Assembly: GCA_002118135.1 (NCBI GenBank)
Contig: BDIU01000320.1
Coordinates: forward strand, 1-64,000
Origin: Trebouxia sp. TZW2008
Lineage: Eukaryota > Chlorophyta > Trebouxiophyceae > Trebouxiales > Trebouxiaceae
Direction: 5' to 3'
DNA: 64,000 nucleotides
The translations under genes were made by a program, and so were the position numbers. The notes under the pieces were generated by a model. It saw only the letters and a list, made by a program, of their open reading frames with translations, was not told the DNA's origin and did not search any database. Of the stretch, positions 600 to 48,540 are shown piece by piece. Each line of letters starts with the position of its first letter. The stretch's first letter is position 1.

Positions 600-3500
600 A
601 TGAGCATCGGGACAACAGAGGCCGCGCCTGGTGGCGCAGAGTGCGTCAGGGTTGTGGTCAGATGTCGACCACTGAACAGCTCAGAAGTCGGCGATGGTCG
701 CCAACGGATTGTCAGCATGGATGCAGACTTGCAGCAGGTATCTCAAAGTTTGTCATACAGCCGCGCGTGCGAGCTTATCAATAGCAACACTTGTCACGTC
801 TGATTACAGGTTGTGGTACAAGCACCTGGTCAGACAGGGGAACTGCCAAAGACCTTCACCTTCGACAATGTTTTCGATTGGAACAGCACGCAAACAGCTG
901 TGTACAACGAGACAGCCAAACCGATTGTGGACAGTGTTCTGGAAGGGTACAATGGCACAGTCTTTGCCTATGGTCAGACTGGGACTGGCAAGACACACAC
1001 CATGGATGGCGGTGCTGGCGACACAGAGCGTGGAATCATTCCCAAAACCTTTGATCAGATATTCAACGCTATTCAGGCATGCAACAATAATCTGAAATGA
1101 CTTTTGCGGCTCAAATCTTGCTGCGACCTACAGCAGCACTTGCTTTTATGATCTCTGTTGCCCACTGTTACCACCCTCATCCCAAAGACTTTTGCTCATC
1201 ATCACATAGCAGTAGACCTGGCACATTGGCATCACTACAGCACAGTGCAGCACAGCGCAGCACAGCACACATGTCAGTCTTCACATCGACACTCACAAAA
1301 GCCACCACTGCTTCACAACATTGTACCTTGTTTTCTACTACCAACAGAGCATGGCACACAAGTCTGCCCTTACATTGCTATTCACAAAGACCACCATGCT
1401 ATTTGAACAGCTGTTTCACAATGTGACCTTGACGACTGCCCAAACATGACCTTAAGTGGTGCAATCTCCAAGTGTGAGCTTTACTGCACAACTCTGGAAA
1501 TAACCAGCTGCAACTCCAGCACCAAATATCAGAGCCGCAACAATTGCTGGTGCATGCCAGCTTGCTGGACAACAGTATGTTTCACGATTGCGTGAGTGGC
1601 TTTTGCTGCACAAATGTAAATTATCAAGCTGCAACCTCAGCAACAGCATCAGCTTGCTGTAGCTCAGGTATCAGAGCAGCAGCAGTTTCTAGTGCGTGCC
1701 AGCTTTCTGGAGATCTACAATGAAGAAGTGCGGGATCTGCTGAGCAAGAACCCCAAAAACAAGCTGGACCTGAAGGAGCGCAAGGACCAAGGAGTGTATG
1801 TGAAAGGCCTCAACAGCTTTGTTGTCAAGTCTGTGGCTGAGATCACAAGCGTGCTGGAGGTAAAGCAACTGTATGCATTTATGTTAAAGTAACCATTGAT
1901 CACAGTAGAAGTGACTCTAGCACTCAATGTTGAAAGAGATCATGACTCATCAATTAGTGTGTTGTAGTTCCTTCTTTCTGTTGCTGATGATGCAAGCAGC
2001 TGCTACATTCACAGTCTCGCTTTCTCAATGGTTAAATGTGCCAGCAAAGCTTTACGGTACAGTAGTTGCATGCAGCTGACCTTTGTACTATTCAGATGTT
2101 CTACTTACAATTTGCTTGCATACAAGCGTCTCTGCATACAATCTACACAACAATCGTGTGCATTTGTTGTCCTTGTTGTGCACAGCACTGCAGCAATGTA
2201 GCTGTCACAGCAGACTGTGCTCAGGACAGCATTGACCGCACAATGCAGACCCGCAAGCTTTCTGAGTCACAGGGCAGTGTCATGCAGCCTGCACGCTTGC
2301 GCCATTTGTGTCACCGCAGGTTGGCAAAAAGAACAGGAGCGTAGGTGCAACGCTGATGAATCAGGACTCCAGCCGCTCCCATTCCATCTTCACCATCACA
2401 GTAGAGAAGCTGCAGCAAGGAGAAGGCCAGGTAGGCTCTGCCACCATATTGGTTACTTGATGACTGACGTGGTGTACTGTATTTATCCCTGACAAAATCA
2501 GCATCAAAACACACAAGGACTTGCTATGGACCGAGTGGCGGCTTGCTTGATCACACATCAATGGCGTTTTGAGGGGATGGGATGTCCATGCTACCAGTGA
2601 AAGAGTCTTCTAAACAGGGCTGCAATCCTGTGCAGCTGAACCTTGCTATAACAGGGCAGCGGCCAGATCAGGGTGGGCAAGCTGGATCTGATAGACTTGG
2701 CTGAAAGGCAGAGCAAGACTGGAGGTATAAGACAGAGGCTGAACAAAGCTGCCAAGCTTGTGCTGGACCTCCATCATGAACAAGGCTGCAATTCTTCACA
2801 GCTGAGCCCTGCTGTTTGCAACAGGGCAGCGGCCATGTAAGGGTCGGCAAGCTAAATCTGGTGGACCTGGCAGGCAGTGAGAGGCAGAGCAAGACTGGAG
2901 CCACAGGGGACCGCCTGAAAGAGGCGACTAAGATCAATCTGTCTCTGAGCGCCCTGGGAAACGTCATCAGCGCCCTTGTGGACTCCAAAAGTGGGCACAC
3001 GCCATACAGAGATTCAAAGCTCACCAGGCTCCTGCAGGTGAAATCCGTGTCTGTTGTGTCTTGAGGAACCAGTTGTTTCCAAAAGCTTAGCAAAAGCTTT
3101 TTGCATGGCCTTGTTGGTCAACTGCACCTGTGACAAAAGCCAACCCATCTATCATGCAGCATCGTGTCATCCACAGTCTCTGATTTCATAGCTGAACATG
3201 GCAAGCATGGTCAAGATCATGCATTGATGTCTACAATTGCTGATTGAGACTTTCACTGTCTCAAGTTCCTGTAAATCTGTGCAAGTCAAACGGGCTGCCG
3301 CAAGACACGATGTAGAGACATCGTCAATGTTGGGGCTGCTGCTGCTGCTGCTTGTGAGCAGGATATCAGAGCGCACATTTTTTTGTGTTCCCTGAACAAT
3401 GTCAGGTTATGCAGCATGCAGTAGCTGCTTGAAAATTGAATTGTGGAAGCGCACAATGTTTCTCCTTTCTCTAGAAAGGAGACGTGGTATGCGAGACTCG

Positions 3501-6500
3501 AAAGCGGTGGGACAAATGCGGTGCCAAAGCACACCTTCTCATGCCTTCAAAATGTGGTGAATCGCACTGGTATGATGGCTGTTGGATACTTATGAGCTGT
3601 TGAGATGCTCTGTACCTTGTCTTTCATGTGCTCAAACTATGTACATACACCACAATTTGTACTGTGTGAATGGCTGACAGGACTCACTTGGAGGCAACAC
3701 AAAGACAGTGATGATTGCCAATGTGGGCCCCGCTGACTACAATTACGATGAGACCATTAGCACGCTGCGCTATGCCAACAGAGCCAAGAATATCAAGAAC
3801 AAGCCTCGCATCAATGAAGACCCCAAGGTAAGCAGTCTGTTCTCTGAAGCTGTTATGGACACTGTCAAGCACATTCTGCAATGAACCTATTTGTCTCACG
3901 CTGGAATCTCAGTGTGGTGTGCACACTTGTTGGAAGAAATGGCACATTCAGAGTCACGTCACAGCATACTGCTCAATGTTGGCTTTCTGTAAGTTCCATA
4001 CATGTGACACTTTCCATCAATGCTATGTGATTTGTGCTCACCAATTTCACACACAATGTGCACAGCTGGTGATGCGTCAGTGCAGCCAGCCACATCACAG
4101 CCCTCTCAACCTGTCCTGCTCAGGCTCAAGCCATAAGACTTCCTTGGACAACACTGACAAGCGGATTAGTATCATCTGGTCACATGTTTTACCATGTACA
4201 GGATGCAATGCAAAGACGGCATCAGAAAGAGAGGAACTTCAACAGAGCATGCATTCTGTGTGTAGGATGCAATGCTAAGAGAATTCCAGGAAGAGATCCT
4301 GCGGCTGAAGGCAGAACTGGACGCCAGCGCTGCACAGGCACAAGCACCACTTCAGCCCCTGGAGCAGCAGGTCCAGCGCATTGTGGAACGGCCTTTAAGC
4401 GCTACAGAGATTTCTGCCATGCGGGCTCAGATGGAGCAGGAGATGCAGCAGGAGGCGGTTCAGCAAGGAGAGCCTTTGGGGACTGACACACTCAAGCGAG
4501 TATGTCCTTCCTTATTCTGCTGTTGTCCTTTGCTCTGCGGACTAGTTCACTTTTGGGCATGCCACGCCTGATGCTGCTATCATGATTTAACCTGCCACAG
4601 GGGGTTGAGCCATGGGTGTCGATGCACTCAAGCAGGCATGCCAGCTTTGATCCTGTGATTATCATTTGATCTGAGCACTGTTGCCGTCAAGCTAGTACAG
4701 AATGCCTTATGATACGGTTTGCCTTGATTCTGCTCTGTTGCATTCTCTTGAGGCTGATACAATCACGCAGGTATGCCGTGTGTAGTCCAATTGTGTGCTG
4801 ATCTGTGTGCTCTGCTCTGACACTGCTCATGGGCTGTCACTGTCAGTCTGGGGTTTGGCAAGGGTGCGCTTGGCACACTCTGCTTTTGCATGCTGCTGTA
4901 CACTGCAACCGTTGACAAGGACCTCATCTCCCTTCATGCACAGTCAAATGGTTCAGGACAGCACAAGACTGAACTGGTTGGTGACAGCTGATTGTTCTAC
5001 TGTAGTAGGTATTTGGCTGAGCCTGCTGAGCCTGTCTGGCATACTTTAGAACTAATGAATGGAGGTACAGCCAGGCTGCATGCATGTGGTCAAGCTGCAC
5101 TTCAATCGAACATCATGAAAAAGCCTATGCAGAAATGTCTGCCTGGCGTATGTGCAGGTCCATGAGAAGGCTCAGCGCAAGGCAGAAGCTGAGGACAGCA
5201 GCTGTCATGCAAGCACGGCAGCACGCACCATCACACTGCCTCCCATAGGCAGGATCTGGCAACAAAGGCTTTGCTTGACTGACTGCGCGACCGTTGTGTG
5301 TGTGCAGGTTCATGAGGAGGCTCAGTGCAAAGCAGAAGCAGACACAACAGCTGTCATGCAATCCACAGCAGCCCTGCTGCATGCCAGTCACTGCATCATG
5401 ATGCCAGCTAGGTCTCAGCGTCTGTCTGATGTTTGTGTGCAGATCCATGAGGAGGCTCAGCGCAAAGCAGAAGGCAAGACAGCAGCTGTGATTCAAGCCT
5501 GGTAGCTTACACCATCACTTTGCCTTGTACCGGCAAAACATGGTGCAGCAGGCTACGTCTCACTGACCTTCTGTCTGATGCATGCATGCAGGTCCATGAG
5601 GAGGCTCAGCGCAAGGCAGAATTTGAGGCGGCAGCTGTCATGCAAGCCAGGCAGCATGCCTGCAGCCCTGCTGCATTCCCGTCGCTGCATCATGAAGCCG
5701 GCTCGGTCTCAGCATGTATATGATGCCTGTGTGCAGATCCATGAGGAGGCTCAGCGCAAAGCAGAAGCTGAGGCAGCAGCTGTAATGCAAGCCAGGCAGG
5801 CTGCTGCTGGAGAAGCTGCGCGCATGGCGGCTGCAGCGGAGCAGCGCGCCTTGTCAGTCCACCAAATACAGGCACAGCAGGAGTCTGAAGCCAAGAAGAG
5901 GTACAGTGACTTCTACCGCTTCAATCACCGGAAAAAATTGTGCTTACACCAGACTGTCTTGATGATTGAGTGGTGCCACTGCAGTCACAACCCACTGATT
6001 GGTTTCCAATTGCATTGTCCGGGCATCAAGAATGTCTTTACATCAAGTGTCCCTACAAAGAGAAATTACTGTACCTTGCGCATTCACATTTGTTACTGGG
6101 TGAGTTTTGATCCACTGCCAAGTGTGCAGATGTATGCTGAAAGATTGACAAGCTGTGTCACATTTCAGGCAGAATGTTTTTCATGACATTGATTGTATAA
6201 ACCCCCTGTTGGGTCCCTAAAAAGTTGCTTTGCCTGAGGTTCTGTGATCCCCTGTTGGGTTCCCAAGCTGTTGAGTCTGGGTCAAAACCGTTGAACCTAA
6301 GTTGTGAAATGTAAAACCAACTTTCAAATGGGAAACTTGGGAGGGGGAAAGGGACAACAAGGTGGCCCAGGCGGCCCTACCCACTCTGGCCGTCTGTCAA
6401 GCAGAAGCACCTGCTAGGTAAAATGAACTGATTCTTCTCCTTTGGGGCTGAGCTGGAGCCTCATCTGGTGGCATTGCAGCCCAGGGGGAGGCCCAGGGGG

Positions 6501-9500
6501 TCTTACACACCCTGCCCCACTATGAGCATGAAGCACCTTCAGCTAACCCGCTTCAAGTCTTCTTCAGGGGCAAGTTGGAGGCCCAGGGGGGTATGTCCGC
6601 TCTGGCCCACTATCAAGAAGAAGTGCTCAGCAGCCATCCCTGTGCGATGCTTTTTCTTCAGGGCTGAAAAGGAAGCACAGCTGGCAGCTGTGGGGAGCAA
6701 GTTGCTGCAGGGGAATGCCCGGGGGGGTCCTGTCTGCCCTGGCTCACCGTCAATAGGAAGTGCTCAGCAGCCATCTCAGTGTGATGCTTCTTCTTCAGGG
6801 CTGAACTAGAAGCACAGCTGGCAGCTATGGAGAGCAAGGTGCTGCAGGGGGAGGCTCAGGGGGGTCTATCAGCCGTGGCCCGCCGCCAAGAAGAAGTACT
6901 CCGCAGCCAGCAGGAGCAGCTGCAGCGGCAGCGTAGCAAGGAGGGCGCCAAGCTGCGCCAGATTGCTGATATGGAGGAGGCAGCTTTGATGGCCCAGGGC
7001 AAATATTCTTCTCTACAGGCAAGCAGTGTGCACAAAAAGCCTGGCAATCTTTGAGCCCTGGATGTGTGGATACTTGAGCTATACCTGGGCCAGAAATAGG
7101 TGCTCAAGCCAAACACTAGCTTTGTAAGGAGGACGCTAGGCTGTGCCAGGTTGCTGACAAGGAGGAGGCTATGTTGATGGTCCAGGCAGATAAGTTTCCC
7201 TACAGGCAAGCAATGCATATAGGAAGCCTGGCAATCTCTGAGCACTGGATGTGTGGATACTTGAGCTATATTTTGGATGGGCCAGAATCTCGTGCTCAAG
7301 CTGAAAACTAGCTTTGTAAGGAGGGCGCCGAGCTGCACCAGATTGCTGACATGGAGGAGGCTGTTTTGATGTCTCAGAGCAAATATTCATCCCTACGGGC
7401 GAGCACTGCGCGCAAGCAGCCTGGCAATCTTCAAGCACTGGAATTTTAGCCAAAATTTAAAGCTCAATCCAAGCACTAGTTTCATGAGGAGGGCGCCCAG
7501 CTGCGCCAGATTGCTGCTATGGAGGAGGCTGCTTTGCTGGCTCAGAGCGAATAAAGGTTTCTGCAAGCAAGGACAGCACGTCAAATTTTGCTTTTGTCTG
7601 ACTCAGCTTTGCTGCCGTTGAGATTTACTCATGGCAAAGCAGCTGCTGGGTCCTCATCATCTTAGCTTGCTGTTTGAGCAGTGACCAAAGTCAATGACTG
7701 ATGCAGGAGGAGGCAGAGCAGGTGACCAAGAAGCTGCGCAGGCTGTGGCTGAGGTTTATAGAAGCCAAAGGGCCATTAGACAGAGCATTGCTGCTGTATA
7801 CACCACGATTATGATGATGATGATGATTGTTGCAATGACTCATGCAGGAGGAGGCAGAGCAGGTGACCAAGAAGCTGCGCAGGCTGTGGGTCAAGTACAC
7901 CAAAGCCAAAGGGGAGCTGGATGGGGCGTGGGGGGAATGGGCCGCTGAAAAGCAGGACATGCTGGACAGCGTGCGCATGCTGCAGCAGCAGCTTACGCTC
8001 AAGGACCTGGTGATCCAAGCATTCCTGCCTCCTCAAGACGTGCAGAAGGTGAGCAACTGGTTCTGTCAGATGTCATGAAGGTTGCTCAGTTTCTCAATGC
8101 ATTGCTGTTCAAGTCCTCAGCCAAGCGGTCAACTTACATATTGTCAGGACAGCGTGTGAATGCTGCTGCAGCAGCTCACGCTCAACCCGGTGATTCAAGC
8201 ATTCCTCCCTCCTCAAGACGTCCAGAAGGTGAGATCTTGTTGCTATATGACGTCTCGAAAGTAATATGACTGCTTACTCCTCTGAGCAATAGTATCAGGC
8301 TCCTCAGCACAGCTGAAAAGGTATGGATTAAAGGGACAGCGTGCGCATGCTGCTGCAGCAGCTCACGCTCAACCCGGTGATTCAAGCATTCCGCCCTCCT
8401 CAAGACGTTCAGAAGGTGAGATCTTGTTGCTAAATGATGTCTTGAAGGTGGAATGATTTCTTACTCCTCTGAGCAATGGTATCAGGCTTCTCAGCACAGC
8501 TGAAAAGGTATGGATTAAAAAGACAGCGTGGGCATGCTGCAGCAGCAGCTCACAGTGAAAGACATGATGATCCAAGCATTCCTCCCTTCCCAAGGCGTCC
8601 AGAAGGTGAGATCTTGTTGCGAACTGGTGTCTTGAAGGTGGAATGAATGCTTGAAATTCAGTGCAAAGGTGACAAGCTTCTCAGCACAGCTGCAAAGCTG
8701 TGGGAACATTGTGCACATGCTGCAGCAGCAGCTCATGCAGCAGGACCTGGTCATGTAAGCGTTCTCGCCTCCTCAAGATGTTTAGAAGGTGAGCGCAGTT
8801 GAGCCATCATCATTTGCCAGCTCCTGCCATGCCAGACAAAGATGCCTACATGCAAGCTTACCAATGGCAGCAGAGTGGGAGCTGATGGAGATGTGACGAA
8901 ACTCTTAAAAGTGGACAAGTAGTTATAGTTCTCAGTACAATGGTGCTGAGCTCCCCAAGACAACTGTCAAATTCTTCATGGTGGGAGACAGCCATGCATA
9001 CTGCAGCAGCAGCAGGAGACTTCCCTCAATGGCCTGGTCACGCTGTCCTGACCCCCACAGAATAAACCGAGGGTGCTACCTGTCAATGGTCAGCAAGCAA
9101 ACAGTCCATTTCTTGCTCAATGTGCCGCACCTGTTTTGCTGATGCATGAAGCAGCAGCAGCAGCAAGTCACACCATCTGCTTGTGTAGGCTGACACTCAC
9201 AGCACATCTTGAGTGCTACTCTTCAGTGCTACTGGTGGTCTCCACAAAAGCAAACAGACTAGGTGCACTGAGCAAGCAAACGAAAGGCAGCATGTGTGGC
9301 AGCTGCGATCTAGCTGGGTTTAAGCGATGTTGTGCAGCTGCCCCACATCACAAAATTCTGACTCCTGTGCAGTGCCTGAGCTCTTTTGGAGGTTGGCGTT
9401 GCTTGGCGACGCACTGCTGATGCTGAAGTATGTTGGCTGTCACATCTGGCATCATGCATAGAGCCCAAGCTGTGCACATGGAATCTGCCCAGCAGGAGAT

Positions 9501-11184
9501 GCACGAACAACTGTTCACTTTGCACAACAAGACGTTCAGCTGCTGCACACAGGTCATGGACAGGGCTCAGTGGGATGAGGAGCAAGAAGTGTGGATGCTG
9601 CAGCAGCTGCCAAAGCAGGTGGCCAAGAGACCCATGAGTCAAGCCCACCACAGGCGGCCTGTCACTGCCTACGCCCAGGCTGCAGTTGCTTTGGGAGATC
9701 ACAACCCACGCTACAAGACTGACAACATCTTGGCGCTGGCATTGGACATGCCTGACCGCACCACAGCTGACTATTCTGGCAGTGCCATTCATACCCAGGT
9801 ACAGTTTCGTCTTGTGACAAAGAAAGCAAGAACTCATTGGACTCATAGCGATAGTCAGTCAAGTCTCTACAGGCGACCTGTTACTGCCTATGCCCAGGCT
9901 GCAGTTGCTTTAGGAGATCACAACCCACGCTACAGGACTGACAACATTCTGGCATTGGCGCTTGACATGCCAGACCGCACCACAGCTGACTATTCTGGCA
10001 GTGCCATTCACACCCAGGTACAGTCTCCTCTTACAATAAGGAAGGCAAAAATTCATTGAGATAACGGTCAAGCGCACCACAGGCGCCCTGTCAATGCCTA
10101 TGCTCAGGCTTGGGGTAATCACAACCCACGCTACAAGACTGACGATATCTTGGCGCTGGCATTGGAGATGCCTGACCTCACTACAGCTGACTATTCCGGC
10201 AGTGCCACTCACACCCAGGTACAGTCTCCTCTTACAATAAGGAAGGCAACAACTCATTGAGATAACAGTCAAGCCCACCACAGGCAGCCTGTCACTGCCT
10301 ATGCTCAAGCTGTAGTTGCTTTGGGTGATCACAAGCCATGCTGCAAGATTAACAACATTCTGGCATTGGCGTTGGATATGCCACATGGTACCATAGCTGA
10401 CTATTCGGGCAGAGCCATTCACGCCACGCCGGTATACTCCCTTTGCCCATGACCGACAAGTGCAGCTTGAAACATGTACAATGTTTTCTTGATGTGATGA
10501 CTGCATTTGCGTCCAAGATGGTCGTCCAAATGGAGAAATGCCACCGCAGTCAGAACGTAGAGATGGGTCCCAGTTGCATTGTCCTTACAGCAGAGTATCC
10601 GCTTGTATCAAGTGTCCTGTCAGGACATTACTGTGTGGCAGTTCAGTTACTTATGTGAAGACACTTGGCAGACAACCGTGTATAAGGATGTCACTTCCTT
10701 CCATGCTCAATATAAACAATGGAGTATAGCACAGGACTGAACTGTTTGGCGACAGTTGACTGCTCCATTGCGTATCTGATTGGGCCTGCTGAGCATGTCT
10801 TAGAAAATAATATAAAAAAAAGTCTACGCCGTCAGGCGTCATAACGGGAGCCTCTGTTTATAGAGGCAGCCCGGATTTATGTCTAGCACATGTTCAGTGA
10901 CAATTTCAATGATGACCATTACACATTTCAACACATGTGCTAGAATGATGACATCTAGAATGCAGAAATGATGTGAATGTTGTGAAATGCAGGCAACTTT
11001 GAATGCAGCATTTGGCAAGGGGCATCAAGGCACTGTCTTCTTTGACAATCAGAATCAGCAGCAAGTCATCCTCATGGATGACCTCACACTAAAGGCACAG
11101 ACTGCACAGTGGCCTAGCACAGCGGCCCGGCCCCCCGCTGGCCCCAGAAGACCCCCCTCAGCAAGAGGGCGACCGATTCATTGA
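600..11184 (+). CDS. Kinesin-2 motor subunit (KIF3/FLA8-FLA10 class), 12 exons
   Basis: Plus-end microtubule motor of the heterotrimeric kinesin-2 that drives anterograde intraflagellar transport. Exons read: 600-737, 810-about 1076, 1683-1859, 2320-2430, 2825-3037, 3681-3827, 4266-4499, 5737-5900, 6799-7018, 7848-8048, 9553-9798, 10993-11184; phases agree and give about 769 aa. Motor motifs in order: [12 protein letters not shown]-loop [22 protein letters not shown], switch [12 protein letters not shown], switch II VDLAGSE, then [15 protein letters not shown] before the neck. Exons 7-10 encode a Gln/Ala/Glu-rich coiled-coil stalk. [13 protein letters not shown] near the C terminus resembles the KIF3B-type tail. 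Donors after exon 2 and exon 9 appear to be GC (CAG|GCATGC, CAG|GCAAGC), the first being uncertain. Introns contain many degenerate exon copies, listed separately. KIF3A- versus KIF3B-type assignment is not settled. Confidence 0.9.
2655..2770 (+). pseudogene. Relic copy of kinesin exon 5 (switch II exon)
   Basis: This segment in intron 4 is a degenerate copy of the start of the exon at 2825-3037. It includes the acceptor context ATAACAG|GGCAGCGGCCA and the frame [21 protein letters not shown]. The Gly-Ser of the switch II motif DLAGSE is missing through a 6-base deletion, and the copy ends before the rest of the motor core, so it cannot replace the real exon. Copy distance is about 170 bp. 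Confidence 0.8.
4906..5045 (+). repeat. Dispersed repeat family A, copy 1
   Basis: About 130 bp in kinesin intron 7. The core reads GACTGAACTGGTTGGTGACAG ... GCCTGCTGAGCCTGTCTGG (given in two pieces). Related copies occur at 10676-10803 (+), 15221-15290 (-) and 60190-60265 (+). There is no coding frame; it looks like a short interspersed or MITE-like repeat. Confidence 0.6.
5156..5736 (+). repeat. Exon-echo array B: four copies of kinesin exon 8 start
   Basis: Four degenerate copies of the beginning of exon 8 (real exon 5737-5900) start at about 5156, 5309, 5441 and 5590. Each carries TGCAG plus a version of (I/V)[11 protein letters not shown]...AAVMQ. Spacing is about 130-153 bp, and each repeat includes the upstream intron sequence with its branch/acceptor region. 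Several copies remain open for 20-30 codons but lack a good donor. The last copy is the full exon. Confidence 0.85.
6446..6798 (+). repeat. Exon-echo array C: degenerate copies of kinesin exon 9 start
   Basis: Copies of CTTCAGGGCTGA...GAGG-CCCAGGGGG begin at about 6446, 6566 and 6657, before the intact exon start at 6799. Spacing is roughly 90-140 bp. The copies retain the acceptor (CTTCAG|GGCTGA) and the AELEAQLAA coding core in decayed form. They fill most of intron 8, together with unrelated sequence at 5901-6445 in which I see nothing else. Confidence 0.75.
7120..7556 (+). repeat. Exon-echo array D: copies of kinesin exon 9 end
   Basis: Three copies of the 3' half of exon 9 (real 6941-7018) start at about 7123, 7319 and 7488. 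They preserve AAGGAGGGCGCCAAGCTG..., the frame EGA(K/E/Q)L(R/H)QIADMEEA, and in two copies the downstream CTACAG|GCAAGCA or a close variant, so the GC donor was duplicated too. Spacing is about 170-195 bp. The last copy ends in a stop (AGCGAATAA). Confidence 0.8.
7703..7785 (+). repeat. Partial echo of kinesin exon 10 start
   Basis: About 75 bp upstream of exon 10 nearly duplicates its first 60 bases (GCAGGAGGAGGCAGAGCAGG, then ACCAAGAAGCTGCGC), including the ATGCAG acceptor. It lies about 145 bp before the real start at 7848. A short ATG/GAT microsatellite (7808-7827) separates the two copies. Confidence 0.8.
8150..8795 (+). repeat. Exon-echo array E: four copies of kinesin exon 10 end
   Basis: Copies at about 8150-8229, 8333-8416, 8518-8607 and 8705-8790 repeat the end of exon 10 (VRMLQQQL...VIQAF.PPQDVQK) together with the donor AGAAG|GTGAG and about 100 bases of following intron. 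Spacing is about 185 bp. Copies 1 and 2 read LNPVIQAF in place of LKDLVIQAF. Copy 4 carries TAAGC within the frame. Identity declines with distance from the real exon. Confidence 0.85.
9862..10438 (+). repeat. Exon-echo array F: three copies of kinesin exon 11 end
   Basis: Three copies of the [20 protein letters not shown] ... [12 protein letters not shown] segment (real 9650-9798) occur at about 9870-10017, 10081-10218 and 10284-10432, at periods of about 205 bp. Copies 1 and 2 keep HTQ|GTACAGT donors. Copy 1 is almost intact at protein level, but its acceptor CTACAG|GCGACC would shift the frame. Copy 3 is more decayed ([12 protein letters not shown]) and has lost the donor. Confidence 0.85.
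10676..10803 (+). repeat. Dispersed repeat family A, copy 2
   Basis: This copy in kinesin intron 11 shares AGCACAGGACTGAACTG and GGGCCTGCTGAGCATGTCT with the copy at 4906-5045. Intervening sequence is alignable by eye with small gaps. Confidence 0.6.
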
Positions 11185-14700: not shown

Positions 14701-16261
14701 CACTGGCAAACAAGACACCGCAAAACTTGCAAAACCATGGCCAAGGACATGCAGACCAATGTGACAACATGCGCATTGTCTCTGATGCAGCAGTCAGCAT
14801 GTTCAAACCTGAAGTATATCACCAGAATCATCACCGGGGTTGCTGGGCTCATTTGCAATGTCCCATGCCAGGATTGTCGGGTCGTCGCGGTACAAAGTCC
14901 CTGTTAAGCCGTTCTTGCGCAAAACGATGGCAGTCACATAGTCTTTGTACTGTGCCTGCAGAAACGACAAAAGGATTGTGTTCTGACATCTGCCAATGGC
15001 ATCAGCACCTGCTGCAGTTGAGATAGCATGCAACAGTGTTGACTTGGAGACCAGATCATGATGTGTCGTCCGTTAATGGCTTCAGCACATACTGTAGCCA
15101 AGATAGCATACATCAGCCGTGGAACTGTGTGTAAAGTCAGCACAACAGCCTTTAGCCTGTTTACTGCACAGCATGTGTAGCATGGTCGTTCATTCATTTC
15201 ATTCTTTCATTCATTGTAAATGTGGGCTAGGCAGGCTCAGCAGGCCCATCAAGGTATGTACAGAAGCAATCAACTGTCTCCAACCAGGTCATGTTGGGTT
15301 ATATATTTACATTTGTAGCATGATGCATGTTGACGTGTCAGACATTACCTGAATGCTGGTATCGGTGTAGAACTGCTGTACATTGCCTGAGGCATTTCTC
15401 CATGTGACATACTGCTGCATGCCTCCATAGTCAGGCTGCATCAGAAGACAACCGCCTTTCAATCTAAGCATCATGAGTACATGAATATGCAGAGCAGCCC
15501 CTGTCTTGAATGCCGGACACGTGCAGCATGCTGACATTGCAGCATTCGCTATTGCTGTTTGCGTCAGCAGTACACATGCGTACGGCAACAAACTCATGCA
15601 ACAAGGTATGAGAAAGGACACACTGAACAGACAAAGCATTGTAGCAATGAATCCAAACACCTGATACAGAGCTGCGTATGTCATGCAAAACGTGCTGCTT
15701 GTCACATCCCCGGGACTAAGTGACAATGCTTGCTGGCTGAGAAGCAACTGGATACTTACATAGTAGTTGGTCAATGTCAGGATGAGCTTGATGCCATATG
15801 CCTGTGCTTGACTGACAACATAGTCCAATCCTTCCCTGCAGTTGCATTCAAACAAGTTGACATGTATCATCACATCACACAAACAGATTACAAAACCGAG
15901 CATGGGTGCTAGGTGCGCATGTCCCAAGTTCTGTCATGAAGCATGCAGTTCGTAAAGGCTTGCTGTCTGTACTTGCTTTGTGCTTTCAGGTACATCAGCT
16001 ACGAATGCAGACTGTGTGAGCCGTCTCAGCCTGGCTCAGAGCAGTGCTCTGCTTTTGACCAGAGGCAGGAAGGCAGGCAAGCAGCCAGGAAGGCAGGCAG
16101 GCAGGCAGGCGGGCAGGCAGGCAAGACAGCACGTGAGCAAGCAAACAAGCAACTGACAGCTGCAAACAATTCTGACCTGAAGACTGAAGTATAAAGTTGG
16201 CCTGCCTGACGTTGCAGAGGGAAAGAGGTGGTGTTGCCATCATTGGAAGGCCGCCAGGTAT

Positions 16262-16321
<60 letters not shown>

Positions 16322-17660: not shown

Positions 17661-17850
17661 TCCCTGAATTTGGGGGTCTCTGGGTCTTTGGAGATCTGCA
17701 CCCGTATAGAGTCAAGACTTGTCTATAGCGATGTGATTATACACAGTTCCGGGTAACTTTGCCTCCCTGCAGAATCGTACAGATTTTTTGCCTTGCACAT
17801 CTGCGTGTATCTATACCTTGCTATAGATCTGTATGGGTACAGGTCTGTGC
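17661..17850. repeat. AGATCTGCA-type repeat, left copy
   Basis: Contains GGGTCTTTGGAGATCTGCA followed by degenerate TATAGATCTG units. On the minus strand at about 35830-36190 lies a related block (GGGTCTTTGGAGATCAGCA, then many AGATCTGCA/ATAGATC units). The two are in inverted orientation outside the arms of the 15.4-kb unit. Confidence 0.6.
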
Positions 17851-28928: not shown

Positions 28929-28961
28929 AACTGTGACTTCAGCGCCATCAAGGTAAGACCT

Positions 28962-31780: not shown

Positions 31781-31806
31781 TAACAGGTTGTTTCAGCAGC
31801 AATGTT

Positions 31807-38939: not shown

Positions 38940-41900
38940 TTATGTGCCCTTTGGGTACACCTTATTTGTGTTGATATCAAGGTATGCCGCACTTTTCATG
39001 TCAACCTTAGTAAAGCGCACTGTCCCAAGAAGCTGCTCAGGCAGCTCTTGGTCTTCTCGGCCTTCTAGTACAATAGCCATGTCAATGATGAGGCTGGTGG
39101 TGACTGGGCTGACCAAACCAACAACTGACGCTGCTGCTCTGCTGCTGCCTACATCTACATCCACCTCAAAGTGCCCAGGCCCCCTACACGCAGAAGCAGC
39201 TGCGATTTGAATGTGGAATGTCTACTGCAAAAGTCACACAGTGTCCAATGTAACACTTACCGAGTGTATGTGTCAACATGATACTGCATATGCCACATAC
39301 CAGAAGGCTGCTGGCACTACACAAGCATGTGTCACCCCTTTGCATGTGCCACAAAGCATTAGGTTGCTGACATCAACAGACACAAGCTGGGTGTTGCAGG
39401 GCCTCAAATCGTTTGCTTTTCGGATGTCCCGTTGGCCTGATGACAGGCTCAAGCACTTTTGCTTCTAGCCCTGCTACAGTTTGATGCGACACAAACTTGA
39501 CGTTTGAGCACATTACACCAGCTGTGCAGCCTTGCACCATTTGCTTGCAGCCTTGCACCATTTGCTTCCAAGGCAAGCTGAGCATGCTTTGCAGCCTGAT
39601 GTGCAAGGCCCACTGACAAGGTGAAAAGGTGAAGGTGCCCACCTGTAGTAGCGAGTGGTCAGCTTCTTGCCCAGCAGGACTGGTGTGTTGCCAACCGCTT
39701 GCTTGATCACCCAAGAGCCTTTCACCACTGAAGGAATCAGCTTGAACATGCAAGACCGCCGCTGCTCTGCTTCCTTGTCATCACCAGCCAGAAACCTGAA
39801 GCAAGAGACAATGTGCAAAATACGCAAGCAAAGCCAAGGCTGCTGCATCTGATGTATTCACATCAGTTCCTGACAGGTAACATCCTACCTGATAGTTAGC
39901 CTGGGCAATTTAAAACCTGGCATGCACTGCTGCATTCAGAGGAAGCTGTCAAGGCAGAAAAAGGTTTCTCACCAACAGTAATTTTGTGACGATCTTTTGC
40001 ACCACATGCTGATGCAATGTTGGTAAGATGATCCTACAAGGGCCGGCAGTCGGCCTCTCTGCAATGTGTGTTGTCCAGCTTGCAACAAAGCATTGACACG
40101 CTTCAATGAGAGCTCTTGTGTGCTTCTTGCAAATCAAGAACATGATGTGAAGTACACACACACCTGGCACATGTGCTGGAGAGGTACTGTTATTATATCA
40201 TGTGAAGTGACGCTCAGAACAAGCCGGCCTGGCGGGATAGGACTTGGGCCACACACACCTAGCACATGTGCTGGAAAGTGTGACCATTCATTATTTGTAC
40301 TATGTTATTTATTATGTGAAGTGCACAGCTTACACAGGTGTTGTCCTGGTCAGGTGCAACAAAGCTGCAGGCAGCTCACCTGGCTAGGCAAAGGTCAAAG
40401 GGCGATTTGACCAGCTCAGAGTCTGAGTCAGCATCTGCCCCATGACCTGAGAAGGTGGGGGTGGCCTCCATGTGGGAGGTGGGGGTGTCAGAGGGGGTGT
40501 GGGGGGGTTTGGAGGGGTCGTGGGAGGGTTTGGAAGGGTCATAGTCTGCAGCCCACTCCATGGTGAGGGAGAGGTATGGTGGCCCTGGTACCATCAGCTG
40601 TACCACAAAGGTAAAAGGCGCTTTGCTATCCCTGCAAAGCATCACAACTTCTTTGCTTGCTGGGCTGGCAATTGCCCTGGTCTGAAGCCAGCGGCCAAAG
40701 CTGTGTAACAGTGCTTCAGGAGCGTCACGACATAGCATAACCCAAAACAGCTGGCAGCAATCATGCTGCTGCTGCTGTCTTGATGTGAAGTGACTCTCAG
40801 TGAAGGACAGGACATGAGCTGCAATGAGCATGAACAGGCCGCAGGCATGACGCTAAAATACGGGTGCAAACAGGCATGGCAGAATGATACTCTGTCACCG
40901 AGACCTACACCATGCACCATGGGGATTACTGCTTATGCAGGTGCAAACAAAATCAAGTCATAGAATGGATATCTTGGATTCGGGAACCTTGGTACGTTGG
41001 CAGATATGAATTGTGACTGCATGGGAAAGCAGGCAGGCAATCTGCCATGTCAGATTTCTCACACTCTGCCTGACAAAGTTGAGTGTCATTAATGGCACAC
41101 ATGCACAAACACTGCTGTGTTTGCATCATCTGTTCGATATCCCCTGAGATTTTCACTAGCATATCAGCATTGCAAAAGATTGGCTGCCGCTGTCTGGCAA
41201 GGATAGACTGAACAGATTATGCATGAAACATTAGTAGCAATGGCAGTAGATAGTCACGACTCAGCAGTGAGTACTCAGTCACCACTGCTGTGATTCACAC
41301 ACAACTGTCTTGATTTAGGACATGCGTTGAAAGACATCTTTCAGTCCAGGATGAAAAAAGACCAGACTGCTCATGATCAGCGCCTAACTTAATGGATGAT
41401 AATGTAGCCTGATAGCAAGTCATCAGCAAGGATTTGGCAGAGAACATCAGTAAGGCTTGTGGGTGCACCTAATGGCAGGCAGGTGCTCGGCTATATGCCA
41501 TGTGGGAGCCTCCACCTCCACCAGGTCCACACTGGCCAGCCCAAATACTGGCTCATCTGCCTCAATCTTCTTCTTGTCCTGTATGCACAACTCAATTGCT
41601 GTAATTTGAATTGTTGAAAGTTTACAGTGGGATCTAGCTTTTGCTTGCCACTTCAAGCGGATGCTGAACCTGGTTCCCACTTCATCATCTAAGCCAAACT
41701 CTTTGCCATACCTTGAGGTAGGTCTCAACACTGACCTTGTAGTCAGCAGCACTGAGACATTCTCATCAATCAGGATTCAGCTGTTGACCGTCCACCTCAT
41801 GCAGATGCTGGTCCTGGTCTTCTCTTCATCATGCAAGCGCACTGTTGCTTTACCTTGCGGATGAGCTGACACTGGACTTTGCAGCCAGCAGCGCGAGCAC

Positions 41901-44900
41901 AGCTACAGTGCTTGGCATCCAGCTTGCAATGCTCACTGTCATGCAAGTGCTGAATCTGGTCTCCACTCAACCATCTGTGCCACACTTTTGCCTTACCGTG
42001 AGCTAGGTCTGTCTTCTGACTTTGTAGCCAGCAGCACGAGGACAGCTACAGTGCTTGGCATCCAGCTTGCGATGCTCACTTTCATGCAAATGCTGAATGT
42101 GGTCTCCACTCAACCATCTGTGCCACACTTTTTGTCTTATCTTGAGGTAGGTCTGTCTTCTGGCTTTGTAGCCAGCAGCACCAGGACAGCTACAGTGATT
42201 GGCATCCAGCTTGCAATGCTCACTTGTATCCAAATGCTAAAAGTGATCTCTACTCAATCGTTTGTGCCAGACTGTTTGCCTTACCTTAAGGTAGGTCTGT
42301 CCTCTGACTTTGTAGCCAGCAGCACCAGGACAGCTCCAGTATTTGGGATCACAGGTGCCCAGCGCTGCAGGGGCTTCTGCCACATCAGGCCCTCCACCAT
42401 CGCCCTCTTCCCCAGCTGTGGCGACCGTCTCCCCCTCAGCATTCACGTGCTGCATCAGCGGCTGTGAGCTGCTGCTGGCATCTGCCACAAGGTTGGTGCG
42501 CACCGTTGCCAACCTGTGCAGGGCATTATGCAGCTGTAAGCTGCAGGAATTTCACAAGCTGCACACCATAAATGCGGCTGATGGTGGTGCCTGGCCAATG
42601 CTAATGTTTGTCATGCAACAGGCAGACAGAGACATTCTCATGCAGCTTGTCTTAGTGAGGTTGACGCGCAAAGTAAACGGCATCACATACTTAGTAGTGC
42701 ACGCCTGACAGTGCCTGAAATGGTGCTGTTTGCTGCTGCGTTCCCAAGCTGTCAGGACTGCCATGCTCATGCGCTGACAAGAAGACTATGCTTTAGCATT
42801 GATGTGCTCACTTGCTAGCCTGGAATGAGGATAGTGTAGCACTGCGCTCTACGCCCTTCCCTCGCACACACATTGTGGCAGTGCGCTCATACTTCTCTGG
42901 GTCATTCTGCTGGCCCATGCTGAAAGGCTTGACGGTGAACCTATCTTGTTCTACCTGCACAACATGCAAAGGCTGCTTACTTTGAGACAAAGCCAAGTCT
43001 GCAGCTCTGCTGCCAGGTAAGAGTCGTGTATGCTGTGCATGATGGCTGCAGAAATGCAAATGTCACCTTGACTTCAAGGAAAATGATGCACATGAGCATT
43101 GGCTTCAAAGAGGAGCTTGGAGCAACATGAGTCATCTTGGGACTGCTAAGAAGCATCAACAAAAGTATGTCAGTAACAAAGTCACATTTTCAATGACAAA
43201 CATGACCAACATGATGACTAAACAAATATGCAGTCTCTGAGGAACATGATGGACATGAGCACAGGCTTCAAGTAGGAGCTGTGAATGCCATACACAACGA
43301 CGCTGAATCAATGAGCTGTCTATGATTGACACAACAGCCATCATAATGAGCTGATAGGAGTGGTCAGCAACAGTTCAGGTATACTCCTTGCAGCACCAAG
43401 ACGCTTGCTTGATTTTCAACATCTCCTTGTCTCTGAGGATGACAGACACGAGCATGTGCTCCAAGCAGAAGCTTTGGGTGCCATGCAGGAAAAGGCGCTG
43501 TGGGTACAATCAGGCATTGAGACAACTCTGTCAACAGCAATGGCACCTTGCCACAAAGGAAAATGAGGCACACTCACCTTGTCTCTGAGGGAAATGACAG
43601 ACATGAGCATGGGCTCCAGGTAAGAGCTGTGGATGCCGTGCATGAAGGGGCGCAGCACCCAGCCCATGCGGCTGCGCTCACTGAGCCAGCCTCCCAGATC
43701 TAGCTTCAGCACCATGGTCACCAGGCACTCTGGGGACACCCCGGCCGCTTGGTACTTGGCTGACAATGGAGCAATGGTGAAGCCTGCAGACGCCATCTGC
43801 ATGCCACGCATCAGGCTTTACTGCCCATGAGCAGAGAACAGGGGACTGCCCCCCGGGTCCAGCTTAACAATTCAAGCAAGCACATCAGTCTGGGATCAGC
43901 TCTGTATGGCAGCTCAGCAGCAACACAAAGACATTGACATGCATCCCATTTTTGTGTGGGCCGTCGCTTCATGCTGCAGACTTACAGCTGGCGTACAGCT
44001 TGCAGAGCAGTGGCAATTCACAGAGGCTGGAACAAATGTCAGGCACATCCGGGTTGTTTGCCTCAGCTGCAGACTTGGGTGTCAAGCTTGCAAAGCAGAG
44101 CACGCATGATCATCACTCACATGCTTGCTATTGGGGGCTCTATGCCCCTGCTAGGTGCATGCAGAAGCCATGCACATTCCTGTAAAAAGCCATTTTTCAG
44201 AGCAGCGCTTAGGGACATGGTGCAGTAGGCAGGCCTGGGCTCTGCTGGACTACTGTGATCAGCTGCAGAGTTGTGAGCTTGAGCCTGGCAAGGCAGAGCA
44301 GCAGCGAGAAAGGGGAAGGGGGTCATATTACAATGAACGAACCTGGGCTCTGATGGGTTGCCACCAGGACCAGCTGGGAGCTGGCTCACTGGCTTTGCGA
44401 TGCTTGGTGCTGTGCAGCAGCACAATGAAGGTGCCGTCCTCTTCTTCCCTCCACATCTGCTGCAGCACCACCTCCCTTGGGGCACACATCTGCAGCAGAG
44501 TGTGGTCATCAGAAAGGAAAGGAAAGGAAAGGAAAGGGAAGGAAAGGAAAGGAAAGGAAAGGAAAGGAAAGGAAAGGAAAGGAAAGGAAAGGAAAGGAAA
44601 GGCCTGGAGGCGTCACGACAGGGCCCTCTGTGAAGATAGCAGCCCTGGGACCAACAAAAAGTGACATATGATAGCAGGAGCAGAGTCTCGTTCTGGCAGG
44701 TGTCTTGCCTTGTTCATGTACACTGTGAAGCAACATGTTTCACACAAGCCTCACTTTTGCTGGCAGGATGAGCTTGAAGTTGGAACATCCTGCCTGTGGT
44801 TTGCTTTGTTGATTCTCTTGGCGTGCAAGGTAGCGCATCATTTGTTCTCTATATCTGTGTATCAGCATTGAAACATGTTGCAGCTGCAGCAGGGATTTTG

Positions 44901-47900
44901 AAAGGCTGTGACTCCTATCTGTGAGCGCATCACCAATCAAAATGTTGTTGCATGCTGACATGGGCAAGTTGGTCCAACCCAGCAGGAACTGCAGGGCAAG
45001 TGTCCAAGCATAAATGGGGTATATGGCGCTTACAGTGAGTGCAGCATTGTTGGGCAGCACTGCGTCTTTGAGCTCTAGCCTCTCGGCAAGCAACAAAGCA
45101 AGAGCAAAAGTTTCACAGGGTTACAGCTGTTTGCAGTCAGCAGGGCATGTGATGCAGTGTCAAAGGGGTGCCTATAGTGTGTGCAGGACCATTGGGCGGC
45201 ACTGTGCCCTGCAGCATTTGGCTTTGGGCCTGCAACAGGGCAACAGCTTAAGCGTCTCATGGGAAGAGCTGACTATCGTACAGCTGGGCAAAATGTGAAG
45301 TGTGACAGGGGTGCTTACAGTGTTTGCAGCATCATTGGGCAGCACTATGCCTGTCAGCACTTTTCTTTGGGCATGCAACAGGGCAACAGCTAAAAAGTCT
45401 CGATGGTTCAGCTGATCCTCATACATCCAGGCAACATGTGAAGTATGGTAGGGGTGCTTACAGTGTGTGCAGCGCCGTTGGGCAGCACTGTGCCTTTCAG
45501 CACTCGACTCTGGGCATCTAGCACCTCCAAAACTTCCAGTCTGCTCAGGATCGGGGCATCCTTCCAGTCTGACTTCTCCATTAGCGCCTGTACATTCGCA
45601 CTCCAATTAGGGAGTGTTGCATTCTGTGTCTATGTCTGTCATGCAAGAGCGTCAATGAGAAGCATCTGAGTTAACAGGGACAGGTTGAGTTCCACGATGT
45701 TCCACATGAAATGGAGCAAACACACTGCAGCCTGCCATGCTCCCCATCAGCATCATGTGTGCCTGCCATGTCAAGTCGGCCTTAATGTGAAACTAACAGT
45801 TTCATGATGCCCCTCCTGCTGCTTTCTTGCAGTGCAGGTTCAGAGCATGACTATCAGCATGCCTTGTGCTTGTCTGGTGTGTCGCACCTTGAAGCAGGCT
45901 TTAGGGGTGGCCCTGACAACTGCTGACACCATGAAGGCTCCCCCCTCGCCTGACTGCTCCGCATGCTCCTGATACACTGCCACTCCATTCACATGCCGCA
46001 GGTTGGCCCACCTGGCCTTCTCAGCTTTCTGTGTGGACATCCTTTGCGCAAAGGCGCTTTGCGCAGTGTCATCTGCACAGGCAATACGGCTAGTGGAGAC
46101 CAGACAGTACACATCCAAGCACATCTGAGCTTGGGAGTCCTGTCTATGCTTTCTCTGCAATGGACTCTCTGCAGGACTGAATACATGTTTACACAGCAGC
46201 ATTGAGCCCCACTGCTTTTGCATATCTGCGCACATGCACTCTCTGAGGTTGGGGCTGGCTTGATCAGTTGCTGTGTGGGCGAAGCAGCTATAAGCTGTGC
46301 TGGCCTTTGGACAGCCCAATAGTTTCACTGGTCACTGTGAAACGCTCAAAGGCATGGCTACAGAAGTGGACAGCAGTGAGTTGAACGAGAATGCATCAAC
46401 ACTTGTCTATCAAATGAATTTCACACAGCTGTGCATGACAGGCATTTGGCAAGCCTGTGAGTCTTTGGCTTAGCAGCATGCAGAGCTGCCAGAAGCCAAA
46501 TGCATAGCCTGCCTTTCCAATCAAGTCAGCCGTGACGTTCCTTTCAGCGCATTCTAGCTAGGTTTTTTGATGGCGAGATCAAGCATGCGCTGCTCAACTG
46601 ATGTCTGCTCAGCTTGAAACAACAATAATCTGTGCAGCAGGCTGCATGCCTTTGCAAAGCCTTGCTCAGGCTGAACGCATGATGAATTTGCTGCTCCCGG
46701 GTGCCCTTATCAGCAGCAGCTGAGAGTCGCTGCATTGGGATTGAATTCTGCCTGGCAAGGAGACAATGATGTGTTTCGGCCTGTCTTGACAAGACGCTGC
46801 TTGAGGCCTCTGTTTGTGTTCCTGCTCAATCCAGTGCTTATCGCAACACTGATCTCTGTTGCTGGTGCTGCCGCTGCCATTGCTGCTGCCTCAGGGTTTG
46901 TTTTGCTACTCACATTTGAGGCTTCTGCTGCTGCATCAAGAATGATGACAGCTGCACCTTTGCTGCTGCGCAAGGGTGTATAGGACTGTTGCCAGCCATG
47001 CCTTGACCATGACAAGGTTTTGACCTATGCTTCCTGCGTACTTCTCAAAAAGCAATGGCTCACCTAGAGAGTTGAGCTTGGCAGTGAAGCTGCCGTTCAT
47101 GGACTCGCGGGTCATGCGCAGCAGGTCTGCATGGTGCTCTGTTTGCCCTTTGGCTGCTGCTTGAGCTTGGCTGTTCAGCAAGTTCTGCATCAGCAGCAAC
47201 AAAGCAATAGTGTCTTGACAAGATCTTGTACAGTTGAATTGTCTTTGCATAGCAGCAGGACAACTTCTCTACTGGAAATGCTAGTCTCAGGTGTACACCC
47301 AGAGATAGCTTTTACTTGAGCTTGTCGACGTTGTCACGGATGCAATCGCAAAGCACAAAGGGAGTTGAGCATGCTGTCTTTGATGCCAGCTCAAAATGCG
47401 CAAAGCTCTTTCTGAGACAAGTGTGTGTTGCGGTGCCACAAGAGCTGACTCCAGGATATGAAACTAGTGGCACATTCATCTATACAAGGAACACCCATTG
47501 GCAAGCCTATCCTTGCCTTTGGAGTGTTTGCAGTTGAGCTGCCTTGGGGCATGTGTGCACCTCAGAGTGTGCAAGTGCTTGAAATGCACACCTTTGCAAG
47601 ATTGCTGTGGTCCAGAAAAGCTTCTGAGCCTGGTGAGCTGGTGGGCGTCAGATTGGCTGATGACAAGGCCCTGTCGCGCCCCAGAGGGCTCTCACCCCGT
47701 CCAAGAGGGCTGTCTTGAAAGGTGGTAGTGGAGGCAGAGCGTGTTGCCAAGTCTGTGCTGATGTGTCGTCCAACCATGTCTGTGCCCAGGTTGCTGATCG
47801 CTTCTCTCAGGGCTTCTCGCCATTTCTGTGCCTCTGCCTCTGTCTCACACCCTAGCTTCAAGCCATCCTTGCCAAACAGGTGAGAGCTGGGGCTGTGCAC

Positions 47901-48540
47901 CGTGAAGTAATGCTGCACCATGCAACAGCGCTCAATGTCAAGTTGCTGTTGCAAGAGGCATGGCTGCAATTTTTTTGACCGCAAATCTGGCTCACATCGT
48001 CTCGAAATTGGCCGTGCCTTACGTGAATGTCTTTGTAACATCGCTAGACTGTTTCCAACAGAAACTTGCGTCACAGACATTTGATGCCTGTTAGACAGAT
48101 GCCAGTTGCATCCGCTCAAGGGAAACATGTTTCAGCTTTCTTTGCTAGTGCTGCAATGTGCTGCTGCCCTAGTGCACACACTCAGTACTGCCAATGTGCT
48201 TGAGCAGGATTCAAGAATGCTGAAAGCTGCGCTTTGTATTGTCAACAAATTTAATTGCATTCAGAGTGCACTGTCTGCATGTGATCAGAAGGTTCGCACC
48301 AGCTGCAGGCGGTCATAGTGGCCAGCTGCCAACGCCCAGATGGTGCTGGTGTGCTTGTTCTGCACCATGAACTCCTTGGACTTGATTTTGCTGAGCTGAC
48401 AGCGAGAGCTCAAGGGCCAAACTTTGGAAGGCTCCTTTGAGTCCTGCTTGCGGAACGTGGCTATGCTGTGGGGAAACAGAGCTGTCCATCGTCGATTGGT
48501 GATCCCGGTCACCACTCCACTCTCTCGGTACAGTATACCT
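38940..48540 (-). CDS. EDR2-like protein: PH - START - DUF1336
   Basis: Lipid-binding regulator of the plant ENHANCED DISEASE RESISTANCE 2 type. Exons read: about 48300-48540 (PH start, ILYRESGVVTGITNRRW), 47592-47912 (PH end, EAEAQKWREALREAI), 45888-46072, 45462-45587, 44343-44489 (START: APREVVLQQMWREEEDGTF), 43578-43796 (SPECLVTMVLKLDLGGWLS), 42812-42954, 42285-42513, 41469-41578, 40380-40631, 39643-39795, 38940-39183. The 12 exons join in phase from 46072 onward. DUF1336 is clear: HIAEHLPAIRD, PFTFVVQLMVPGPPYLSL, FKLIPSVVKGSWVIKQAVG, VDVGSSRAAA, ELPEQLLGTVRF. An exon between the PH and START parts (about 46550-46980, Ala/Ser-rich) is likely but unresolved, as is the first exon (about 48550-48760). 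Confidence 0.85.
40060..40345. repeat. Two-copy tandem repeat in EDR2-like intron
   Basis: ACACACACCTGGCACATGTG, then GCTGGAGAG, and later TATCATGTGAAGTGACGC recur about 110 bp further on as ACACACACCTAGCACATGTG and TTATGTGAAGTGCAC. Non-coding. Confidence 0.6.
41711..42210 (-). repeat. Exon-echo array: four copies of the exon ending at 42285
   Basis: Copies near 42138-42207, 41994-42063, 41853-41922 and 41711-41764 repeat the end of exon 42285-42513 (YWSCPGAAGYKVRGQTYLK|GTAAGG), reading for example HCSCPGAAGYKARRQTYLK and HCSCPRAAGYKVRRQT. Spacing is about 143 bp. Each copy includes about 70 bp of intron. Copies become less similar with distance from the real exon. Confidence 0.88.
43075..43480 (-). 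repeat. Exon-echo array: three copies of the START-end exon
   Basis: Copies near 43425-43480, 43237-43290 and 43075-43125 repeat the end of exon 43578-43796 (SSYLEPMLMSVISLRDK|GTGAG), for example EPMLMCIIFLEVK and ACAHVHHVPQR. Spacing is about 160-190 bp. The oldest-looking copy is the most distant. Confidence 0.82.
44230..44300 (-). repeat. Echo of exon 44343-44489 end
   Basis: GCCTGGGCTCTGCTGGACTA followed by GATCAGCTGCAGAGTTGTGAGC is a partial copy of the end of the neighbouring START exon (CCTGGGCTCTGATGGGTTGC ... CAGCTGGGAGCTGGC), 111 bp away. Confidence 0.6.
44516..44602. repeat. (GGAAA)n microsatellite
   Basis: About 17 units of a GGAAA pentamer, with one interruption (GGGAA), just upstream (in gene orientation) of the START exon at 44343-44489. 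Open frames through it (KERKGKERKG or FPFLS) are artefacts. Confidence 0.95.
45030..45390 (-). repeat. Exon-echo array: three copies of exon 45462-45587 end
   Basis: Copies near 45311-45385, 45171-45240 and 45030-45090 repeat the end of exon 45462-45587 (SRVLKGTVLPNGAAHT|GTAAGC), for example VLPNDAANTVS and VLPNNAALTVS, with the donor-side GTAAGC preserved in most. Spacing is about 140-146 bp. Confidence 0.85.

Follow-up and report, generated by a model that had tools for sequence, protein, structure and literature searches.

Tandem copies of exon edges ("echoes") lie in the introns of three genes of the chlorophyte Trebouxia sp. TZW2008, encoding a kinesin-2, a GH5 mannanase and an EDR2-like protein, and these arrays probably arose from small tandem duplications that occurred largely regardless of exons and whose edge copies then decayed neutrally. 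The genes lie in a 64,000-nucleotide stretch (contig BDIU01000320.1 of assembly GCA_002118135.1, positions 1 to 64,000, forward strand; hereafter the window), which was analysed against the 68.5-Mb Trebouxia genome in 527 contigs. A sequence-only reading of the window had claimed such repeats in the adjoining introns at no fewer than (at least) 11 exon edges of these genes; we find a local tandem copy at 13 of their 70 internal exon edges, plus a weak 14th.

Exon edges of three genes are repeated in the adjoining introns

Local arrays were defined as direct copies within 1 kb, and copies of gene edges were called at BLAST E ≤ 0.01. Array limits in the window were taken from a tighter extension, a looser BLAST run having fused arrays into one 2161-bp alignment; edge mappings at 6932, 6853, 7989, 7889 and 43223, which came from fused or weak alignment, were discarded. 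The echoes of EDR2-like exon 8 and kinesin exon 3 were placed by hand from the self-comparison of the window. The arrays are as follows, with the functional edge in parentheses.

1527-1711, forward strand: weak echo of the kinesin exon 3 acceptor, 43 bp long and 142 bp upstream, with AA in place of the acceptor AG
2613-2932, forward strand: kinesin exon 5 acceptor (2825), one echo at 2655
5069-5807, forward strand: kinesin exon 8 acceptor (5737), echoes at 5592, 5443, 5308 and 5158, AG in all
6350-6909, forward strand: kinesin exon 9 acceptor (6799), echo at 6662, more degraded, unscored copies upstream
6930-7580, forward strand: kinesin exon 9 donor (7018, a GC donor), echoes at 7205, 7398 and 7566
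7692-7913, forward strand: kinesin exon 10 acceptor (7848), echo at 7707
7964-8794, forward strand: kinesin exon 10 donor (8048), echoes at 8228, 8415, 8605 and 8788, GT in all
9637-10425, forward strand: array of kinesin exon 11; the functional copy ends at 9798, and further copies lie at 9871-10017, at 10081-10218 and from 10282 onwards
11801-12323, reverse strand: GH5 exon 11 donor (12254), GT echoes at 12090, 11965 and 11846
13100-13403, reverse strand: GH5 exon 10 acceptor (13214), echo at 13357
16157-16464, reverse strand: GH5 exon 4 donor (16390), echo at 16177
41628-42350, reverse strand: EDR2-like exon 10 donor (42285), echoes at 42141, 41997, 41854 and 41712
43063-43653, reverse strand: EDR2-like exon 8 donor (43578), echoes near 43426, 43230 and 43067
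44991-45517, reverse strand: EDR2-like exon 6 donor (45462), echoes at 45319, 45176 and 45034

Each array comprises the functional edge and one to four echoes at a spacing of 119-219 bp. The self-comparison, which the earlier reading had suggested as a check, places the copies collinear with the exon edges. The scored set consists of 32 echoes at 14 edges (the 14th being the weak one); it excludes the more distant, degraded copies of kinesin exon 9 and, in the kinesin exon 11 array, copy 4. Two other arrays in the three genes are intronic only (14974-15116, and a simple-repeat stretch at 16068-16320), and beyond the three gene spans array coverage of the window is 0.3%.

The edges derive from the following gene models.

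600-11184, forward strand: kinesin-2 gene, 12 exons (600-737, 810-1076, 1668-1859, 2320-2430, 2825-3037, 3681-3827, 4266-4499, 5737-5900, 6799-7018, 7848-8048, 9553-9798 or 9553-10017, and 10993-11184), set by the in-phase open translation of exons 1-11 and the junctions of Trebouxia protein P0001, the last exon by tblastn and gene finder
11729-17296, reverse strand: GH5 mannanase gene, 12 exons with edges set by tblastn, its translation identical to P0138 over all 490 amino acids
38943-48792, reverse strand: EDR2-like gene, 14 homology-supported exons, from tblastn with P0121 and P0122

All kinesin-2 phases fit, and exons 1-11 align to P0001, from Trebouxia sp. C0005, with no gap at any junction; in the part searched, the closest relatives are those of Trebouxia sp. 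C0005 (86%), C0009 (73%) and A1-2 (71%). No Pfam family matched the kinesin-2 tail piece. The longest source sequence of P0138 (1,873 bases) is shorter than the 5.6-kb gene, and P0138 was therefore taken as a spliced transcript, which we infer to come from the same species or a near-identical strain. Relatives of the EDR2-like protein carry PF01852 and PF07059; a further predicted exon of this gene, at 46781-46930, was excluded for lack of homology support.

Echo decay fits neutral drift beside a constrained exon

Across the scored set, exon parts of echoes matched at 82.3%; for intron parts the figure was 66.4% when gaps were included. Splice-dinucleotide bases matched at 92.2%, with a usable dinucleotide kept in 27 of the 32 echoes. 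That similarity falls with distance from the functional exon, as the earlier reading proposed, holds for the exon part, in which 23 pairs are concordant and 6 discordant (permutation p = 0.0052) and the nearest echo is best or tied in seven of eight arrays. The gradient is less clear in the intron part (19:9, p = 0.077; nearest echo best in four of eight arrays).

Decay figures, which leave out the kinesin copy 9871-10017, fit neutral decay of the echoes beside a constrained exon. Intron parts mismatch at 0.273 of aligned sites (343 of 1257), which taken as 2t gives t = 0.137. An echo drifting freely beside an exon that is fixed at codon positions 1 and 2 should differ from it by about t at these positions and by more at position 3; the mismatches at positions 1, 2 and 3 are 0.158, 0.123 and 0.241, with a mean of 0.141 for the first two. 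Dinucleotide bases are kept at 59 of 64 sites compared with 55.2 expected from t (p = 0.11), and 170 of the 261 changed codons of echoes are nonsynonymous.

Splice choice and coding potential of the echoes

In the GH5 transcript each exon is present once and all echoes are missing: donor 12254 is joined to acceptor 11777 and the three GT echo donors in between are skipped, two of them scoring above the used donor by the gene-finder weights (6.5, 7.0 and 0.4 for the echoes, 4.0 for the donor used). In all three gene models, the edge in use lies outermost, adjoining the exon body. This fits recognition across the exon, as judged from one transcript next to which minor isoforms are possible.

Echoes might instead persist because they serve as decoy or alternative splice sites or as mutually exclusive exons. 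Usable dinucleotides in most of them, many scoring equal to the functional site, would agree with such use, but an open, in-frame extension of the exon exists at only two of the 32 echo sites (10017 and 16177), and use of the other 30 would shift the frame or bring in a stop. Together with the neutral-like mismatches at the codon positions and the transcript that omits all GH5 echoes, this makes retention for use improbable; as a class, the echoes seem to bear no sign of it. The suggestion that the arrays supply spare exons has thereby mostly failed, with a possible exception in kinesin copy 9871-10017.

This copy looks coding-constrained. Compared with the functional copy it has 12 synonymous codon changes and 1 nonsynonymous change, whereas the next two copies stand at 7:7 and 13:13 against functional exon 11 (20 and 20 summed; Fisher p = 0.008). 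Changes unique to one copy fall on codon positions 1, 2 and 3 as 0, 0, 2 in the functional copy, 1, 1, 3 in the copy at 9871, 2, 4, 2 in that at 10081 and 6, 5, 5 in that at 10282, the last two decaying evenly over codon positions. Positions 9799-10017 form an open, in-frame stretch, and exon 11 may extend to 10017, which would add 73 residues to the tail. Kinesins of C0005 and A1-2 have one copy of the segment. Numbered from the functional copy, six sites group copies 1 and 3 against 2 and 4, two group 1 and 2 against 3 and 4, and none groups 1 and 4 against 2 and 3; three sites have three or more states. Duplication of a dimer is likely in this array; given that the six sites grouping copies 1 and 3 lie within 25 bases and that the intron parts group differently, exchange between copies is likely too.

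Tandem arrays are widespread and lengthen introns

The genome-wide survey that the sequence-only reading had called for was run on a sample of 24 stretches of 10 kb elsewhere in the genome, taken from 20 contigs (240 kb, 0.35% of the genome). Merged counting gives 64 sample arrays; splitting by shared segments gives 98, next to 16 in the window. Sample exons were placed by a self-trained gene finder seeded with the kinesin, and 22 of the 381 predicted exons were dropped as local copies of longer ones. Among pieces of four predicted sample proteins searched against Pfam, three matched SIS, HAD hydrolase and alpha-amylase families and one matched none.

Direct local copies cover 38.0 kb of the sample in the merged count, compared with five arrays (2.65 kb) of inverted copies, and third-order and fifth-order Markov resamplings yielded 0 and 1 array (0 and 0.5 kb); a chance origin of the echo arrays is excluded. 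Arrays are spread over the sampled contigs, with at least one in 23 of the 24 stretches, and have a median period of 135 bp (quartiles 100-169; 98 sample and 16 window arrays). The survey thus upholds the arrays as a widespread feature; a preference for exon edges is not established by it (see below). Array load is uneven, ranging from 0 to 12 per 10 kb with a variance 2.4 times the mean (p = 0.0002), and genes therefore differ in their exposure to duplication or their tolerance of it. By locus, the load was 12 in L017, 9 in L018 and L025, and 0-1 in L011, L012, L029 and L031.

Array sequence additional to the first unit accounts for 5,030 of the 19,628 intron bases (25.6%) in the three genes and for 18,648 of 137,579 predicted intron bases (13.6%) in the sample. 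The copies are direct and adjacent, as in tandem duplication, and their source is the adjoining exon and intron; in the kinesin of the relative, P0001, every exon is single. We found no new intron between copies: at the exon junctions, the three genes match their homologous proteins, and no copied piece of exon intervenes.

The location of the copies in introns, complete with splice sites, recalls a dispersed mobile family such as introners. The units carry sequence of the adjoining exon itself, however, and for three of them a genome-wide search retrieved, among the best candidates listed, nothing outside their own array, though with limited sensitivity (for one query the candidates included just one other copy of its array); such a family is hardly credible as the source. 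Assembly artefact deserves thought in a fragmented assembly (527 contigs) with a 33-base gap in the window. It is nonetheless very improbable, the copies being mostly 10-30% different, a divergence that misassembly of one sequence cannot create. Among the best literature matches no title concerned such arrays in Trebouxia, and the words "exon" and "tandem" are absent from the Trebouxia genome papers PMC12712428 and PMC11523091 and the Asterochloris paper PMC6652019.

Exon edges as possible duplication targets and the age of the arrays

Two null models were compared, one placing a single random unit in the sequence with extra copies removed (one-unit null), the other dropping whole arrays into the present sequence (whole-array null). 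The 98 sample arrays divide into 52 with an edge, 28 intronic, 8 exonic and 10 intergenic; the one-unit null expects 31.7, 37.3, 17.5 and 11.5, so that exon-only arrays fall below expectation. With the whole-array null, 51.1 edge arrays are expected in the sample, and among arrays of more than 2.5 copies 24.4, compared with 23 observed. Two-copy arrays (≤2.5 copies) show no clear excess, 29 of 48 having an edge versus 51% expected (p = 0.12; whole-array expectation 26.7). Nor is edge coverage enriched in the verified genes, where it falls below the coverage of gene interiors (13 of 70 edges, compared with 17.4 under a shift null), in a test that is biased against edges because it counts the echoes as intron. 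When exons were masked, 32 of the 53 in-gene sample arrays, and 7 of 10 arrays in the window, had an end flush with an exon, and arrays therefore truly cross edges. Frequent crossing follows from units of such size in genes with short exons.

A competing explanation places the cause at the edge itself: transcription-linked breaks or splice-signal sequence at exon-intron edges would start repeated duplication. Several results speak for it and weigh against duplication regardless of exons. In the one-unit comparison, edges are in excess among edge-or-intron arrays (52 of 80 versus 46% expected, p = 0.0005), an excess that stems from arrays exceeding 2.5 copies (23 of 32 versus 38%, p = 0.0001); before copied exon calls were removed, the count was 57 of 98 edge arrays versus 33.0. 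The flush fraction of 32 of 53 lies above the one-unit 46-47% (p 0.025-0.035), and only 2.9 would be flush for free intronic arrays. The three verified genes hold 14 edge arrays against two intronic ones; in the window, 15 of 16 arrays have an edge versus 5.5 expected, and 14 of 16 have an edge of the three genes versus 4.8 under the whole-array null, an excess to be read with caution, as both window nulls spread over array-free stretches. Three further points tell against our interpretation on other grounds. The gene finder over-calls echoes, with 27 exons in kinesin-2 versus 12 with homology support. Of the 31 echoes besides kinesin copy 9871-10017, six (5592, 5158, 8228, 8415, 13357 and 12090; counts of 5-7 each) carry synonymous changes in greater number than nonsynonymous ones. 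Finally, in none of the arrays does the best pair reach 95% identity, unlike what a steady process would leave.

We nevertheless consider edge targeting unlikely. Two-copy arrays give it no clear excess, the whole-array null reproduces the edge count of the sample, and, because an exon is conserved, old copies of its edge can still be recognised, which makes edge arrays easier to find; masking the exons of the three genes left most multi-copy arrays detectable and lost the five two-copy edge arrays. An additional preference for exon edges is possible, but that edges are clearly special targets of duplication is not established. Of the duplication process envisaged in the sequence-only reading, the lengthening of introns and the gradient with distance stand; exon edges as its preferred site are not established.

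As to age, the best-pair identity of 109 arrays is ≥95% in 0, 90-95% in 5, 85-90% in 11, 80-85% in 32 and 75-80% in 29. In simulations, all 12 duplicates were recovered at every age up to a divergence of 30%, and 11 of 12 at 35%; young pairs should therefore be numerous if duplication were steady. Duplication has either slowed after a past burst, or near-identical young copies have collapsed in the assembly. Collapse mainly hides the youngest copies and hardly explains the shortage at 85-95%.

Proposed origin of the arrays

In the origin that we favour, largely exon-independent duplication, tandem duplications with units mostly of 100-170 bp would have been frequent in this Trebouxia genome. 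A duplication spanning an edge would be harmless, since splicing would still use the copy joined to the remainder of the exon; the other copy would become intron and decay neutrally. Arrays would then grow as the unit on the exon side, or several units together, duplicated again. The conserved exon would act as a ruler, old edge copies staying recognisable and edge arrays standing out. Within exons, mostly duplications with a length that is a multiple of three would survive. Array periods modulo 3 are distributed 17/18/17 at edges, 7/11/10 in introns and 7/0/1 inside exons, the last being partly circular, as exon calls need open frames.

At the DNA level, the adjacent copies, the lack of a dispersed source in our search and the little extra homology in four young pairs point to repair of breaks or nicks, with unequal exchange afterwards, an order and timing of events that we infer. 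Alignment length minus period in these four near-complete, two-copy pairs is -4, 6, 7 and 14, too few values to choose a repair route, and unit boundaries are in general too decayed to decide the mechanism.

More tentatively, a burst of small tandem duplication in this lineage, perhaps arising from break repair after drying, may have lengthened introns by about one-sixth (sample) to one-third (three genes) and left thousands of intact-looking, ignored splice sites (extrapolated from the sample), and may now be quiet; an occasional copy would have become coding, perhaps in the kinesin-2 tail.

Other features of the genes and the window

Donors of the form CAG|GC occur in 4 of the 35 introns of the three verified genes (1077, 7019, 17205 and 13594), and both GH5 cases agree with the P0138 transcript. 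The gene finder, seeded with the kinesin, used 63 GC donors out of 521. GC-AG introns normally account for about 1%, and the share of GC donors in this Trebouxia looks high.

Predicted proteins of sample loci L016, L018, L024, L025 and L026 contain near-duplicate segments, probably echoes called as exons.

Outside the three genes, the window contains the following.

27560-30535, reverse strand: retrotransposon-like stretch, with an integrase core (27560-28474) and a reverse transcriptase (29597-30535); the only run of N in the window, 33 bases at 28320-28352, lies inside it
18565-19446, reverse strand: open reading frame with a Pox_A22 match above the cut-off and a weaker Ydc2-catalyt match below it, families that we take to be Holliday-junction resolvase-like

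A further observation concerns window positions 38943-58292. In Trebouxia sp. C0005, protein P0123 joins the EDR2-like protein to a part resembling, by eye, the gene predicted at 54584-59840. P0123 is probably a fused gene model, which suggests that the EDR2-like gene and this second gene are neighbours in C0005 as well.

Comparison with known systems

Serial tandem duplication is an underrated route of intron growth without mobile elements. What it leaves behind are decoys that differ in age by degrees: splice sites that are strong but apparently ignored, and useful for testing how edges are chosen. Gene finders call echoes as exons, and gene models of Trebouxia may therefore contain phantom duplicated exons.

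In tandem exon duplication with mutually exclusive exons, copies of an exon likewise lie next to each other, some with intact splice sites. Unlike these, most Trebouxia echoes are partial and unusable in frame, and only one copy shows what looks like coding constraint. In mammalian cells, according to PMC8355091, small tandem duplications form at breaks with 3′ overhangs via CST-Pol alpha-primase. The copying of short segments side by side at broken ends is similar; the Trebouxia units are mostly larger than the insertions of under 100 bp described in the introduction of that paper, and the pathway would apply to Trebouxia by analogy only.

Intron gain by tandem duplication resembles our arrays in that the duplication spans an intron-exon edge and splice signals are copied. 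There, a new intron results, in one case, whereas in Trebouxia the intron already present grows longer and splicing passes over the duplicate edge, in many arrays. A further parallel is tandem genomic, or internal gene, duplication (Gao and Lynch 2009, as cited in PMC4974935 and PMC2809761), which is intragenic and can include introns together with exon sequence. Unlike in that process, the copies in Trebouxia, up to five in a row, have mostly become extra intron rather than new exons or introns.

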